Of a stretch of 64,000 nt of DNA, positions 38,698 through 45,256 are shown one piece after another. Positions within the stretch are counted from its first letter, which is position 1. Each line of letters begins with the position of its first letter. Position numbers and translations under genes: made by a program. This DNA comes from Acidobacteriota bacterium (GTDB lineage Bacteria; Acidobacteriota; UBA890; WLXD01), in the NCBI GenBank assembly GCA_012103255.1, contig WLXD01000006.1:186001-250000 (forward strand), read 5' to 3'. Under the pieces are notes generated by a model. It was not told where the DNA came from. It was given only the letters and a program-made list of their open reading frames with translations, and did not search any database.

Positions 38698-38772
38698 GCC
38701 GACAGGTTAGCCCTGCCCCACAACCCCCACAAGCACGCAAGATTCTTGTCGCAACCTGTTGAAGAAGAGCGT

Positions 38773-40653
38773 GTGGCGTACCGCATCGTAGGTACCGCCG
38801 GTCACATCGACCACGGCAAGAGCTCGCTCGTCGAGGCGCTCACGGGAGCGCACCCGGATCGGCTCCAGGAAGAGATCGAAAGGGGCATAACGATCGACCT
38901 CGGTTTCGCCGACGCGACGATCGAAGAATTCCATGTGGGCTTCGTCGACGTCCCCGGCCACGAGCGCTTCGTGAAGAACATGCTGGCCGGTGTGGGCGGC
39001 ATCGATGCGGTCCTCATCGCGGTGGCCGCAGATGAGTCGGCCATGCCTCAGACACGCGAACACCTCGCCATCTGCCATCTACTTGGAGTCGATGCCGGCA
39101 TCGTGGCGCTGACCAAGTGCGACCTCGTTGACGATGAGATGCTCGAACTCGTGGAGCTCGAAGTCATCGATCTCCTCGAGGAGACTCGCCTCGAGGGCGC
39201 TCCGATCGTACGGACGAGTTCCACAACTGGCGAAGGCCTCGACGATCTGACCGCAAACCTGGCGGACGTTCTCCGGCGCCTCGCACCACGAGCGTCGGGC
39301 GAAGCCCTACGCCTGCCTGTCGATCGTGTCTTCACCGTCCGGGGCTTCGGAACGGTTGTCACCGGCACGCTCCTGGCCGGGTCGATACAGATCGGTGACC
39401 GCTCGCAAGCGCTTCCCGGCGACTCCATCGCGGCAGTGCGTGGCCTACAAATCCATGGCGAGGACGCTCGAGCCGCTCATGAGGGCCAACGCGTGGCGAT
39501 CAATCTGCATGGCGTCGGCGCAGAAAAACTGTCCCGCGGAATGGTGCTGACCCGCCCCGACGAGCTGACGTCCTCCTATGTCCTGGATCTCCGCGTCGAA
39601 CCCCTACCCGGCTTCGTTCTGGAGCATCGCCAGAGAGTTCGTTTCCACCACGGATCCGCCGAGTTGCTTGGCCGATTGGTGCTTTTCGCCGGCGATGAGA
39701 CCAGTGACATCGACTATGCGCAAATCCGGCTCGAATCACCGTATCCGGCCGTTCCCGGCGATCGCGTGGTGCTACGCCGGTACTCGCCGGTGGAGACGAT
39801 CGCCGGAGCCGAGGTACTCGACGCGCACCCGCCGAAGCGCCGCCGGGGGCGTCAGGCGCGGCACGACCTGGCCACCCTCGACGCCCTCGAAGAGGTCGGG
39901 CGTTGTCGACAGTGGATACTGGGATCCGGCGCTCAAGGACTGGACGAAGCGAGCCTGGCGCAGCGCACAGGTCGCAATCCTGATCGTTTTGCAGAGATCC
40001 TTGCGGCGCTTACCGATGCCCCCGATCTCCGCCGGATCAGCGGCACGCCGGCGCTCTGGCTCGGAACCAAACACCTCGACGAGGCTAGCGCGGCTGTCTT
40101 GACTGCACTGGAGCGCTTCCACGCCGAACACCCGCTGCGCGAAGGACTGGAACACGGCAGGCTTCGTGCTCATCTCGAGGATCTGCCAACAACCGCGGCA
40201 AATCACGTCTTGGACCTACTGGCGACGGGCGACGAGATCGCTTCTGGCGACGGATTCGCCTCGCTCGCCGCTCACCAGATTCGCCTCGACGCAGCCCAGG
40301 AGTCCGCGAGAGCATCGCTCCTGGCGGCTTTCGCCGGCGCCGGGCTCGCGGCTCCGCCGGCGGCGGAGATCCTCAGTAGATCCGCGGACCGCGGACTCGC
40401 CGAGGAGCTCCTGCATCTGCTGATCCGCACGGACGCCCTGGTTCGGCTCAACGACCAGTACGTGGTGGCCGCCTCTTGCATCCAGGAACTCATCCAGCGG
40501 CTACACGGCCTGGTGGAACCCGGATCGACGTTCTCCATTGCCGAATTCAAAGAGTGGACCGGGCTGAGCCGTCGGCATTCGATTCCTGTCCTCGAGCACC
40601 TCGATCGCACCCGTGTCACACGTCGCGTCGGCGACGACCGCGTGCTCAACTAG
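38773..40653 (+). CDS. selB: Selenocysteine-specific elongation factor SelB
   Basis: The protein has about 626 residues. It begins with a G domain of the SelB type ([32 protein letters not shown]), followed by beta-barrel domains 2 and 3, and winged-helix repeats in the C-terminal half that bind the SECIS RNA. It delivers Sec-tRNA to UGA codons. I use GTG at 38773, which gives the normal N-terminus; a TTG at 38746 is an alternative. selA, selD and tRNA-Sec are not in the window and no obvious in-frame UGA selenoprotein is adjacent, so the substrate proteins are elsewhere. Confidence 0.95.
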
Positions 40654-40978: not shown

Positions 40979-41488
40979 ATGGGACAACGCCGTCTAGCTC
41001 TGCGCCTCGTCGCGTTGCCGCTGTTGCTGAGCGTGAGCGCGTGTCAGATCACATGGCGCGAGCCGGTGATCGAGCCGCTCAACACGAATCGCTTCTTCGA
41101 CTCGGCCCTCGATCAGACGTGCGAAGCCGCTGAACAGGTCGTGCAGCAGATCGGGCTTTCGATAGAAGACGTGCAGCGTGAGGACAACGCGTGCCTGCTT
41201 GAAACCGACTTCAAGGTGTTTTCCGACGAGGGTGAAAACCCCATGGATCACCTGGCTCGAGTCGCGATGGTTGGCGTCGGTGGCTTCATCGGCGGACGCT
41301 ACACGCTCACCGTGACCACGCGCGACGTGCGTAACGCGGGCACGCGTGTTCGCGTGACGTCGCGCATCGAAGGCTACGTCAACGAAGAGTTCGGGTATCA
41401 GGTTCTGCGCTCCAACGGCTTGATCGAAACGGCCGTCTTCGATCACATCGGCACCCGGCTCGGCGAGCCCGCCCAACAGGCTCGCTAG
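40979..41488 (+). CDS. Predicted lipoprotein of unknown function
   Basis: This 169-residue protein has a lipoprotein signal peptide with lipobox LLSVSAC, so Cys22 would be lipidated. The mature part is a compact alpha/beta region with Gly-Gly turns near residue 100 (VGVGGFIGGRYTLTV). I do not recognise the family. It follows tatA by 22 bases and is probably co-transcribed, but nothing ties it functionally to Tat. A strong terminator follows. Confidence 0.75.
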   Translation: MGQRRLALRLVALPLLLSVSACQITWREPVIEPLNTNRFFDSALDQTCEAAEQVVQQIGLSIEDVQREDNACLLETDFKVFSDEGENPMDHLARVAMVGVGGFIGGRYTLTVTTRDVRNAGTRVRVTSRIEGYVNEEFGYQVLRSNGLIETAVFDHIGTRLGEPAQQAR

Positions 41489-41568: not shown

Positions 41569-42297
41569 CTAGAAGCGGATATCGAGTCCAACGCTCCAGA
41601 GGAAATTCGAGGCGTTGAAGTCGCCAACGAACACGCCTGGAAGGTCGTCTTCTTCCTGCTTGGTGCCGAAACCTGAGCGCAGGCCTCGTGCATCGATCCG
41701 GAACGCAACCATGTCCACGATCCGAACGCGCAAACCGCCACCGTAGATCAGGCCCGGTTTGCGGGACTTCACGATGCCTTCTTCGTCCGAACTCACGCCA
41801 ACGCTACCGAAGCCCACGGTGAGATACGGCACCACGCGCCGTGTCCTCTCGATCATCGAGTAGTTCACGGACACGGTGAAACGGGTCATGTCGAGATCCG
41901 CGAACGGCACCTCGGTCTTGCCCTGTCCCGCCAGATCCGTGAGTGTGGCTTCGAGGCCCGGGGACGAAACCCCGTACTCCAGTTCAACGTCCCAACGAGC
42001 AGCGAACACGTAGCCGGCCCGCAGGCCGTACATGGTGTCCGAGCCCATGTTGAACTGCGTCCGGAAGAAGACGTTTTCCACGAGGCCCAGTGCGGTACCG
42101 CCAGACAGGTCACCGTACAGACCGCCGATATGGAATCGACTCTCCTTCCAGCCCTCGTCGGGCGCCGAGTACGGAGACGGCATCTCTTCCGTCATCGCCT
42201 CCTCGGCATCCATCTCGGATTCTTCCTGAGCGACCGCCGCGGCGGGCCACACAATCACTATCGCCAGCAACAAAGCGATCCATGAATAACGGCGCAT
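41569..42297 (-). CDS. Outer-membrane beta-barrel protein
   Basis: This 242-residue protein has a signal peptide (hydrophobic core to about 22, cleavage near AVA), an acidic linker, then alternating beta-strand segments and a C-terminal aromatic-ending strand (SVGLDIRF), the OmpA/OprW-like signature recognised by BamA. The function is unknown. It overlaps the upstream pseudo-matrixin gene by one base (TGATG), so it is last in a four-gene cassette of exported proteins. Confidence 0.78.
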   Translation of the reverse strand: MRRYSWIALLLAIVIVWPAAAVAQEESEMDAEEAMTEEMPSPYSAPDEGWKESRFHIGGLYGDLSGGTALGLVENVFFRTQFNMGSDTMYGLRAGYVFAARWDVELEYGVSSPGLEATLTDLAGQGKTEVPFADLDMTRFTVSVNYSMIERTRRVVPYLTVGFGSVGVSSDEEGIVKSRKPGLIYGGGLRVRIVDMVAFRIDARGLRSGFGTKQEEDDLPGVFVGDFNASNFLWSVGLDIRF

Positions 42298-43295
42298 CAG
42301 CCCACCTCCAACGTCAGGCCGCTGGCCTGTTGGCCGGCGCCAAGCCGGATCGTTTCACCGAAGAAGGCGCGCAGAAATGACGTATCCACGTCCTCGCTCG
42401 TGAAGATCCCGCCGATCGCCGCCGGCGTAACCGGAGCCGTCAGGGGCAGAACCTCCATGAGATAGCGCCCGGCCGGCAACCCATCGATACGGAATGAGCC
42501 GTCCGGTAGCGTCAACGAGCCCACAAGGATGTCCGCAATGGGGTCGTAGGCCACGACATGCGCGCCGAACACAGCCGCACCGGCGCGAGTGATCGTGCCG
42601 CTGATCGAGGCGAAGCCCGAGCCCGCGGCTGGATACATCGCGCGGATGCCGGCGACATCGTCGGGCTGCAGCACCCGTGCGCTAGCGCCGATGCCACGGG
42701 CCACCGCGTACATCACGGACGAAGATTCATCGAGAACCTGAGAGGTTTCGAATCCACCGACCGGTGAGTTTGCAAGGCCCAGGAACTTCCCGAACTCCTT
42801 GAGCATCACCGTCTCGAGATCGAGTCCGACGTCAGAACCGGCCGTGGTCGTGAAGCCCACTTCCCGATCGTTGACCAGCATGTCTGCTTCACTGATCGTA
42901 CCGTCGCCGTCGACGAGCAGGAACGTGATCGCAGTGAACTGCGCGCCATCGAGGCCCGCGTCGTTCGAAAACTCGATCGCGTTGATCCCGTCAGCAACTC
43001 CGGCTTCGACGTCCTGCTCACGCTCCAGGTACACCGAAGCGTCGGAGCCGGAAGCAGCGGACCATGTCGCCAATGCCGACTCGAGCGCCTGGCGATCCGA
43101 CGAGTCCGTGATATCGGTCGTCAATCCGGGCGTCACGCGAACAGGAATCGGAAACGATCCGGAGTCCCAGCTGGTAATCACCGGAACGCCGCCCACGTAC
43201 TCGATCGTGTTGGGCACGTAGCCGGTGGCCGGAGACGCCAACGCGAGAATGAGCAACGCAGCCGTTCCCGCCGTCCATCGGACTGATGCCTTCAT
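42297..43295 (-). CDS. Exported matrixin-like protein with replaced zinc ligands, plus CarboxypepD_reg-like domain
   Basis: This 332-residue protein has a signal peptide (cleavage near SPATG, residue 25). Residues about 40-215 resemble the M10 matrixin fold: a FPIPVRV strand, WSAASGSDASV, KEFGKFLGLANS at 166-177, a Met-turn-like SSVMY (192-196) and DDVAGIRAMYP. In active metzincins the first of these is HExGHxLGLxHS, so His166, His170 and His176 equivalents are Lys, Lys and Asn. About 220-330 is a carboxypeptidase-regulatory-like beta-sandwich (ISGTITRAGAAVFGAHV). It is probably a binding protein derived from a metalloprotease. It is coupled at both ends by ATGA/TGATG overlaps. Confidence 0.7.
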   Translation of the reverse strand: MKASVRWTAGTAALLILALASPATGYVPNTIEYVGGVPVITSWDSGSFPIPVRVTPGLTTDITDSSDRQALESALATWSAASGSDASVYLEREQDVEAGVADGINAIEFSNDAGLDGAQFTAITFLLVDGDGTISEADMLVNDREVGFTTTAGSDVGLDLETVMLKEFGKFLGLANSPVGGFETSQVLDESSSVMYAVARGIGASARVLQPDDVAGIRAMYPAAGSGFASISGTITRAGAAVFGAHVVAYDPIADILVGSLTLPDGSFRIDGLPAGRYLMEVLPLTAPVTPAAIGGIFTSEDVDTSFLRAFFGETIRLGAGQQASGLTLEVG

Positions 43296-43801
43296 CGCGC
43301 ACCTCCCTGTCCGACCAGCCGGCTCACCGGCAGTTCGGCTCGATCCACGGCGGGATCGCCGTTGTCCGGTCGCATCAGCGTAGCCCCACCTGAGTGGCTC
43401 GCGCGGGCCGTGACTCCATCAGAGTCAACCTGCCAGACGCCCTGGAACATCCCTACCGGGCGCCAGGCGTCAGCGGAGCCGTAGAGGAAGAGCAGTACAT
43501 CGTCCCCCTTCGACATCCGTGCGGCACCTGGAACAACCATGTTCATGCCACGGTGCCGGCCACCGAGCATACGGACCTCGATGCGACGACTGGCTTCGCC
43601 CTTGTGGACGGAACCGACGCGAACGACAGCGATCGTCTCGATCCTGCCGTCACGCATCTCGGTGCGGACCTTGGTAACACGGCCTTCGACGACGAGTTCG
43701 GCACCCGATCTCAGGCCCGAAAGCGTGAGTCCCTTGAGTACTGTGGCTTCCGCAATCGGCGCAAGGCCGATCATCACCGCGAGCGCCGCCGTGGCGACCA
43801 C
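43292..43801 (-). CDS. Small exported protein of unknown function
   Basis: This protein of about 169 residues, from a GTG at 43801, has a signal peptide (VATAALAVMIGLAPIAEA), then a beta-rich domain with GAELVVEGRVTKV, an IEVRMLGGRHRG strand-turn and GDDVLLFLYG. I do not recognise the family. The start is uncertain. It overlaps the next gene by four bases (ATGA) and begins 11 bases after the VWA gene stop, so it is inside the exported cassette. Confidence 0.6.
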   Translation of the reverse strand: MVATAALAVMIGLAPIAEATVLKGLTLSGLRSGAELVVEGRVTKVRTEMRDGRIETIAVVRVGSVHKGEASRRIEVRMLGGRHRGMNMVVPGAARMSKGDDVLLFLYGSADAWRPVGMFQGVWQVDSDGVTARASHSGGATLMRPDNGDPAVDRAELPVSRLVGQGGAR

Positions 43802-43811
43802 TCGTAGTGAG

Positions 43812-44993
43812 TTATTGGCCGCCGTAGTAGCCAGGCTTGGTGCGAACTTCCCTGGCACCCTTGGCGCGGATCTCGATCTCCCGCCACTCGCCGGGCGAGG
43901 CCGGGTCGGAAGGCCGATACGCGAGGGCGTACTGGCTCTTGAGTTCATTGGCGATGTCTTCATAAGCGTTAAGAAGCTCTCCAAGGGAATCGAGGATTAT
44001 GGACCGGCCACCCGACCCGTCGGCAAAGGCTCGCAGGGAGTCTTCACCGGGATTGAAGCTGTCAAATGATCGCCGACCGCGGAGATCGCCTCCCCCCGCG
44101 CCGAAGATCCCGATGGTATACACGCGAGTGTCGACACGTCGCGCGTACTCGACGGCTTGATCGACCGTCACAGTCTGGGTTGTGTCATAGCCGTCAGAGA
44201 GCACGATCAGCGCGCGTCGCTCCGGACGATCAATGAGAATGTCCGAGCCTTCCACGACAGCGAGGTTCATCGCGGTCGCGCCGCCGAGCACGAGATCGCT
44301 CAATGACTCGCGCAGCATGGCGTGGTTCCCGGTGAGGTCCTGCAGCAGCATCGGGAACGAATCGAACGACATCACGAACGCTTCGTCCTCCGCACCAATC
44401 TGGTCGATAAACGCCAGGGCTCCCTGTCGAGCCCGCTGGAGTTTCGAGCCCTGCATGCTCCCCGACGTATCCAACAAGAGGCCGACGACCATTGGCCGCG
44501 GCTCGGATGAGAAGTTGGTGATCGTCTGCTTCTCGCCGTTTTCGTAGACCTCGAAGTCGTCCCGGTCGAGTCCCGCGACGTAGCGGCCCTCGCCGTCAAC
44601 GGCTGTCGCGTACACCAGGACCGCGCTGACCTCGGCCCGGAACACAGCGGTCTCCAGGTCGCGCGTGAGAATGATGTCCTGGGCGGTGCGGCCGGTAACG
44701 TCGACGACCTCGGCTTCGACCACGTGCTGGGCGAACTCATCGCCCGCATCCCAGGCGATCTCCCAGGGAGCCTGCTCGAGCACTCCCACCACGGCGCCGT
44801 CGACCTTGAACGTAAGGCGCGATATCGCGGTGTCCCCCACCGGCGTCACTTCAGCACGGATCGTGACCTGGCCGGAGACGTACGTGTCGTTTTCCGGCGC
44901 GACAATCCGCACTTCTAGATCTTGTGGCGCTGCCACAAGACGACTCGCCGCGGCGAGTACCAAAACGGGGGCGAGGAGAATTCGTGTCTTCAC
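43812..44993 (-). CDS. Exported VWFA-related domain protein
   Basis: This protein of about 393 residues from a GTG at 44993 has a signal peptide (VKTRILLAPVLVLAAASRLVAA), an N-terminal Ig-like region (VRIVAPENDTYVSGQ) and a VWFA-like domain from about 140 with the MIDAS motif DTSGSM, the second motif Thr in GGATAMN, and IVLSDGYD. It ends with KPGYYGG, typical of the acidobacterial VWFA-related family. Such domains bind ligands through a metal. It is the first gene of the cassette. An upstream ATG at 45059 is an alternative start. Confidence 0.82.
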   Translation of the reverse strand: MKTRILLAPVLVLAAASRLVAAPQDLEVRIVAPENDTYVSGQVTIRAEVTPVGDTAISRLTFKVDGAVVGVLEQAPWEIAWDAGDEFAQHVVEAEVVDVTGRTAQDIILTRDLETAVFRAEVSAVLVYATAVDGEGRYVAGLDRDDFEVYENGEKQTITNFSSEPRPMVVGLLLDTSGSMQGSKLQRARQGALAFIDQIGAEDEAFVMSFDSFPMLLQDLTGNHAMLRESLSDLVLGGATAMNLAVVEGSDILIDRPERRALIVLSDGYDTTQTVTVDQAVEYARRVDTRVYTIGIFGAGGGDLRGRRSFDSFNPGEDSLRAFADGSGGRSIILDSLGELLNAYEDIANELKSQYALAYRPSDPASPGEWREIEIRAKGAREVRTKPGYYGGQ

Positions 44994-45256
44994 GGGCCCG
45001 AGGGGCGACGACAGGACGGCGTCACAGTGCTCTGGTGGGGATTCCAGGGGAGCTAGCAACTAGGCTAGCACAGGGGCTTGAAGCCACTCAAACACCGTTG
45101 GCGTCGAGCTTTTTCGCCTGCGCGACGGCAAACCGGTGCGATGCTGCCTGATTGGTCATCTCCTCGGCGACGCTTCGTGTACGAGGCGCAGGCGTCTAGA
45201 CTGCCGAAACGACGTTCCGTGTCCTGTCCAGCGAGCGACACACGATCAAGAGTTAC

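Follow-up and report, generated by a model that had tools for sequence, protein, structure and literature searches.

The closest described relatives of the protein considered here are the matrixins (MEROPS M10A, PF00413), such as MMP-13, MMP-11 and karilysin, with which it has in common the fold, the methionine of the Met-turn, the Glu and Gly of the active-site helix and the sequence profile. It differs from them in lacking the three zinc-binding His or any other His/Cys set, and in carrying an extra C-terminal beta domain. Metallopeptidase homologues that have lost activity are known among the ADAM pseudoproteases and in families with a substituted HExxH and the CLCAs (PMC3650047; reviewed in PMC11266112); these likewise combine a zincin fold with a substituted motif under selection. 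The present case, in contrast, concerns a bacterial M10 lineage in which all three ligands are lost, natural intermediates are preserved and an NTR/TIMP-like partner is encoded alongside. In families with a substituted HExxH, His is replaced by Arg or Lys non-randomly and more often than expected, a replacement whose role is described as unclear (PMC3650047). In the passages of the pseudopeptidase review reached by a term search, M10 is not discussed (PMC11266112).

A bacterial pairing of a metzincin with a TIMP-like protein has been described in Listeria: Mtz is a secreted metzincin and Tim a TIMP-like lipoprotein, such pairs occur across Gram-positive bacteria, and the authors found no earlier record of a bacterial TIMP-like protein (PMC8235301). 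The locus described here resembles Mtz-Tim in that genes for a metzincin and a TIMP-like protein are adjacent, but Listeria Mtz keeps HExxHxxGxxH/D, has an effect that needs protease activity, and cleaves and releases the TIMP-like lipoprotein, whereas the protease here is dead and lacks the zinc site. Moreover, tim lies downstream, encodes a lipoprotein and is of phage origin, whereas the partner gene here lies upstream and encodes, as judged by eye, a plain signal peptide. We found neither a matrixin/NTR pair from Acidobacteriota nor a dead member reported in the open-access literature that we searched. As the Arg/Lys-for-His trend and the Listeria pair are already published, the acidobacterial pair of a dead matrixin and an NTR protein is a variant of those.

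Matrixin fold of the protein

The window, a stretch of 64,000 nucleotides from an acidobacterial genome, contains the following features:

42297..43295, minus strand: pseudo-matrixin gene; 332 aa, with a putative signal peptide (about residues 1-25), an M10-like domain and a C-terminal beta-sandwich domain
42633..43121, minus strand: matrixin (Peptidase_M10) domain, residues 59-221; Pfam PF00413, 26.2 bits, cut-off 24
42765..42800, minus strand: former zinc site KEFGKFLGLANS, residues 166-177; K166, K170 and N176 replace three His, while E167, G169, G173 and S177 are kept
42708..42722, minus strand: Met-turn-like segment SSVMY, residues 192-196; M195 is invariant in 29 sequences
42450..42608, minus strand: C-terminal Ig/transthyretin-like beta domain (CarboxypepD_reg-like, Pfam), residues 230-282
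43292..43984, minus strand: gene of the upstream partner, an NTR/TIMP-like protein of predicted OB fold with a signal peptide; the 5' boundary of the ORF is uncertain, and the mature protein is encoded by about 43292-43744
43812..45059, minus strand: VWA-domain protein (acidobacterial VWFA family TIGR03436), a neighbour conserved in the dead-enzyme clade
41569..42297, minus strand: outer-membrane beta-barrel protein, downstream neighbour, also conserved in the dead-enzyme clade

A first-pass annotation, made from the sequence alone, had described the 332-residue product as a matrixin-like protein in which a motif at the M10 active-site position is followed by SSVMY and DDVAGIRAMYP (residues 212-222). 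All three segments are present in the translation, and the Pfam Peptidase_M10 score lies above the cut-off, so the motif is more than chance. A profile of the family matches MMP-20, MMP-13, stromelysins and karilysin in the PDB, with E-values of about 1e-6. An AlphaFold2 model built from a 29-row alignment (mean pLDDT 74) places the ex-zinc motif on a helix spanning residues 160-171, a second helix (211-220) after the Met-turn, and a beta sandwich at the C terminus. With Foldseek, the best matches of this model are the catalytic domains of MMP-11, MMP-13 and MMP-9 (E 3.6e-6, about 20% identity), with TM-scores of 0.6-0.66 on the length of the MMPs; the structural comparison proposed by the annotation thus returned metzincins, not an unrelated fold. 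Model confidence is low at residues 147-157 and 177-185, close to the ex-zinc site, so that the model shows the dead site only in outline. The CarboxypepD_reg match of the C-terminal domain is itself sub-threshold (28.4 of 32.3 bits, Pfam), and 10 of 12 homologues matched; an NCBIfam search gave only sub-threshold hits for the pseudo-matrixin and none for the partner protein. By Pfam profile, PDB profile and the fold matches of the model, the protein is a matrixin.

Loss of the zinc site in one acidobacterial clade

Active relatives carry HExGHxxGLxHS where the pseudo-matrixin has MLKEFGKFLGLANS (residues 164-177). The signature HExxHxxGxxH, by which active M10A peptidases are recognized, is absent (KEFGKFLGLAN), and none of the five class members whose copy is readable retains it; together these give the consensus [KR]-E-x-G-[KRH]-x-LGL-x-[NS]S. 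The Lys, Lys and Asn reported in place of His are encoded by AAG, AAG and AAC, next to a GAG codon for E167. The window protein compares with its four homologues as follows (motif; residues at 166, 170 and 176; their codons):

Window: the motif above; K, K, N; AAG, AAG, AAC
G001: KEIGKFLGLANS; K, K, N; AAG, AAG, AAC
G002: REFGKFLGLASS; R, K, S; AGG, AAG, AGT
G003: RELGRMLGLTSS; R, R, S; CGA, CGG, AGC
G008: RELGHLLGLDSS; R, H, S; CGT, CAC, AGC

What had been said about the Lys codons is right: both are more than one change away from CAC. The codons seen across the relatives at positions 166 and 170 nevertheless make a gradual route plausible, from His by way of Arg to Lys, and there is no need to invoke a direct multi-base change from CAC. 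By the tree, H166 and H176 were lost at the base of the clade and H170 later, with Arg preceding Lys. A sequencing or assembly slip, discounted by the first-pass annotation on codon grounds, can be rejected, since the same kind of loss recurs in five genomes, four of them independently assembled relatives. The annotation had also asked whether orthologues fix a K-E-x-x-K pattern. All five have kept the Glu and lost the zinc site, none has a full HExxH, and yet the pattern itself is not fixed (K/R at the first position, K/R/H at the second).

E167, G169, G173, S177 and M195 are invariant in 29 of 29 sequences, 5 dead and 24 active. Several other positions have also changed: residues 181-182 and 196-198, around the cleft, are fixed as E-T and F-P-I in the 24 active relatives and differ in the dead forms, and in the C-terminal domain so do positions 281, 283, 286 and 287 (R, E, D and D in the active relatives). 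An alternative His/Cys metal site was considered and rejected: the only His of the protein is residue 246, within the C-terminal domain, and Cys is absent altogether, so that there is no substitute site of this kind. Going by these residues, zinc has almost certainly been lost, and matrixin-type catalysis with it.

How rare is this loss? The sample of the class comprised nine genomes, of which five, including the host, have a readable matrixin copy; the one in G008 comes from another family of the same order. In a further genome (G006), the partner gene is followed by the start of a matrixin gene and soon after by the end of the contig, and no matrixin copy was found in three genomes of genus g3 (G004, G005 and G007), which are 72-86% complete. 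Across the phylum, the three His and the Glu are intact in 103 of 110 aligned matrixin-like sequences that cover the motif. This set was collected with a profile that included the dead members and is therefore not biased against detecting dead forms. Of the other seven, five are the class members; the remaining two are L071 (HNVGHFIGLGES) and L066, which has a broken frame. The five dead members group as a single clade with support 100/99, nested in a family in which HExGHxxGLxHS is conserved in all 24 of the nearest members. The nearest active relatives of the pseudo-matrixin are just 27-34% identical to it; there is thus no close active form.

Within the genus, dN/dS (NG86) of the pseudo-matrixin is 0.12-0.20, against about 0.12-0.27 for active pairs of similar divergence; dS is near saturation and the values are approximate, but their level argues against neutral decay over the depth sampled. 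Having no set of metal ligands and a gene held by purifying selection, the protein is, by sequence, a pseudopeptidase.

Two further sequences deserve mention in their own right. L071/L181 (G065:C135) represents a separate second loss in the phylum, of the form HNxxH..E (ITHNVGHFIGLGES), with Glu changed to Asn and the third His to Glu; it lies in a long ORF, and a partner gene is found upstream there too. L066 (G236:C3) reads QEIGHFSGLGHS (QExxH) in a matrixin gene whose frame is interrupted internally, which may reflect a pseudogene or a misassembly; it was set aside for this reason.

The NTR/TIMP-like partner and the neighbouring genes

The stop codon of the partner gene overlaps the start codon of the pseudo-matrixin gene (ATGA), and the partner lies directly 5' of the matrixin gene in 29 of 29 close loci, with the 4-base overlap in 25; at these loci the start codons were assigned by a script, and jackhmmer was run against a very small database. 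Searching in the opposite direction, from the partner, across 396 genomes, we found a matrixin match directly downstream of 66 of 83 stand-alone partner hits, and some of the remaining hits sit at contig ends. The host genome also has the partner domain fused N-terminally to two matrixins with an intact HExxH (L019, contig C7, 807 aa; L020, contig C1, 406 aa; both in G000). Aligned partner sequences are clearly homologous, with an invariant Ala at the presumed signal-peptide cleavage site, which was placed by eye. The pseudo-matrixin is thus a member of a family of small secreted matrixins that Acidobacteriota encode together with an NTR/TIMP-like protein.

The partner resembles TIMPs and agrin NtA, of the NTR/OB-fold superfamily, in predicted fold and through a weak sequence match to NtA. 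Its model (pLDDT 90) has agrin NtA and TIMP-1 as top PDB fold matches in Foldseek, and meteorin and complement NTR domains also match ahead of most other OB folds; the resemblance of this predicted model to TIMP is modest (TM about 0.45-0.55, E about 1e-3). At the sequence level, the sole PDB hits are to agrin NtA, with an E-value of 0.29 that is not significant alone, and Pfam NtA matches three partner members (best E 0.0044). The two lines, fold and sequence, are each weak but agree on a predicted NTR domain. Unlike TIMPs, with their disulfides and N-terminal Cys1, the mature partner has no Cys in any of the 29 sequences, and Pfam TIMP matches none of the partner sequences; the protein is therefore TIMP-like in fold but not a TIMP, and inhibition is a candidate function only. 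The partner evolves faster than the pseudo-protease.

One apparent link between the two proteins was dropped. Residue 5 of the mature partner is Pro in all 24 close active pairs and Gly or Lys in all five dead pairs, a pattern that would fit insertion of a TIMP-like N terminus into the cleft; a wider set of about 20 pairs, nearly all of which have the motif intact, often lacks Pro5 as well, and we no longer count the co-change with the active site as evidence.

The order VWA gene, matrixin/NTR pair, barrel gene is common to G001, G002 and G008, and G003 agrees as far as its short contig reaches. VWA and barrel matches were not seen at the active loci sampled, two of which lie downstream of lpxB instead. 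Further along, a small lipoprotein-like gene (window 40979-41488, plus strand) faces the cluster and is conserved in relatives, with a second tandem copy, about 37% identical, in G001 and G002 (L022/L025, L026). A SelB-like gene (selenocysteine elongation factor, named by eye) lies nearby at 38746-40653, plus strand, and is syntenic in relatives.

Possible roles of the zinc-free pair

Ordinary purifying selection has continued to act on the fold markers, the Glu, the Met-turn and the partner gene after the zinc site was lost. We favour the reading, at a probability of roughly 0.6, that a secreted zinc-free pseudo-matrixin has been retained for binding, as one half of an ancestral matrixin/TIMP-like pair. 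The binding role put forward by the first-pass annotation gains strength from the NTR/TIMP-like partner beside both active and dead forms. The two proteins would be exported together and may form a heterodimer, in which the TIMP-like partner, or else a peptide or protein ligand, would dock onto the old active-site cleft. A direct complex of the two is somewhat better than an even bet, and the faster evolution of the partner is weak evidence against a tightly constrained interface. With less confidence than for direct binding, we suggest that Lys/Arg side chains in the place of Zn2+ would put positive charge beside the retained Glu and so keep the metal-free cleft together. At the cell envelope, the complex could be a module for binding or sensing, adjoining the co-conserved VWA and outer-membrane barrel proteins, though these neighbours may be plain synteny within one class. 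The most specific version, in which an ancestral pair of enzyme and inhibitor or chaperone became a permanent zinc-free heterodimer, with Lys/Arg standing in for the metal and the complex as the functional product, is tentative and more doubtful than not.

What else could keep such a gene? The dead matrixin may be a decoy or sink: by titrating TIMP-like inhibitors or matrixin substrates, it would tune the activity of the two HExxH matrixins of the same genome. Inactive metzincins have been proposed as decoys or accessories (PMC3650047), and the two intact-motif paralogues exist; both, however, carry an NTR-like domain of their own in cis and are only distant relatives, so that a shared inhibitor is not obvious, and we regard this role as unlikely. 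A little less credit goes to a new function apart from the TIMP-like partner, for example envelope ligand binding with the VWA and barrel proteins, the upstream gene being kept for operon reasons. The flanking of the pair by these two genes in dead-clade genomes, set against their apparent absence from sampled active loci and the lpxB setting of two of those, speaks for it, but the partner stays with the matrixin in many different genomic settings and also occurs fused in cis.

We disfavour, as improbable, a decaying gene, under relaxed selection after loss of function and awaiting deletion. Its ligands were lost stepwise, several positions invariant in active relatives have changed, and three genomes of one genus of the class show no copy. 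Against this stand frames that are open over their full length in five genomes, at identities as low as about 45%, the low dN/dS within the genus, the invariant Met-turn, Glu and Gly, and the retention of partner and synteny. Least probable is an enzyme with altered chemistry, in which hydrolysis in the old cleft would be carried out by Lys/Glu or by another metal site. The catalytic Glu is kept by all 29 sequences, and dN/dS is no higher than in active homologues, but one His and no Cys are available, the ligand positions drift (K/R, K/R/H, N/S), unlike a catalytic constellation, and the E181-T182 and F196-P197-I198 positions fixed in active relatives have changed.

Finally, we would like to consider the retained pseudo-matrixin and its partner in a wider context. 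One orthologous group provides a natural series, from H-H-H in the outgroups through R-H-S, R-R-S and R-K-S to K-K-N, which suits the study of how an enzyme is converted into a binding protein. It allows the Arg/Lys question raised in PMC3650047 to be tested on small secreted proteins with a candidate partner in the same operon. The occurrence of metzincins with NTR/TIMP-like proteins, as adjacent genes and as fusions, suggests that such pairs are widespread in Acidobacteriota, and protease/inhibitor pairing of the metzincin and TIMP-like type may not be an animal speciality.
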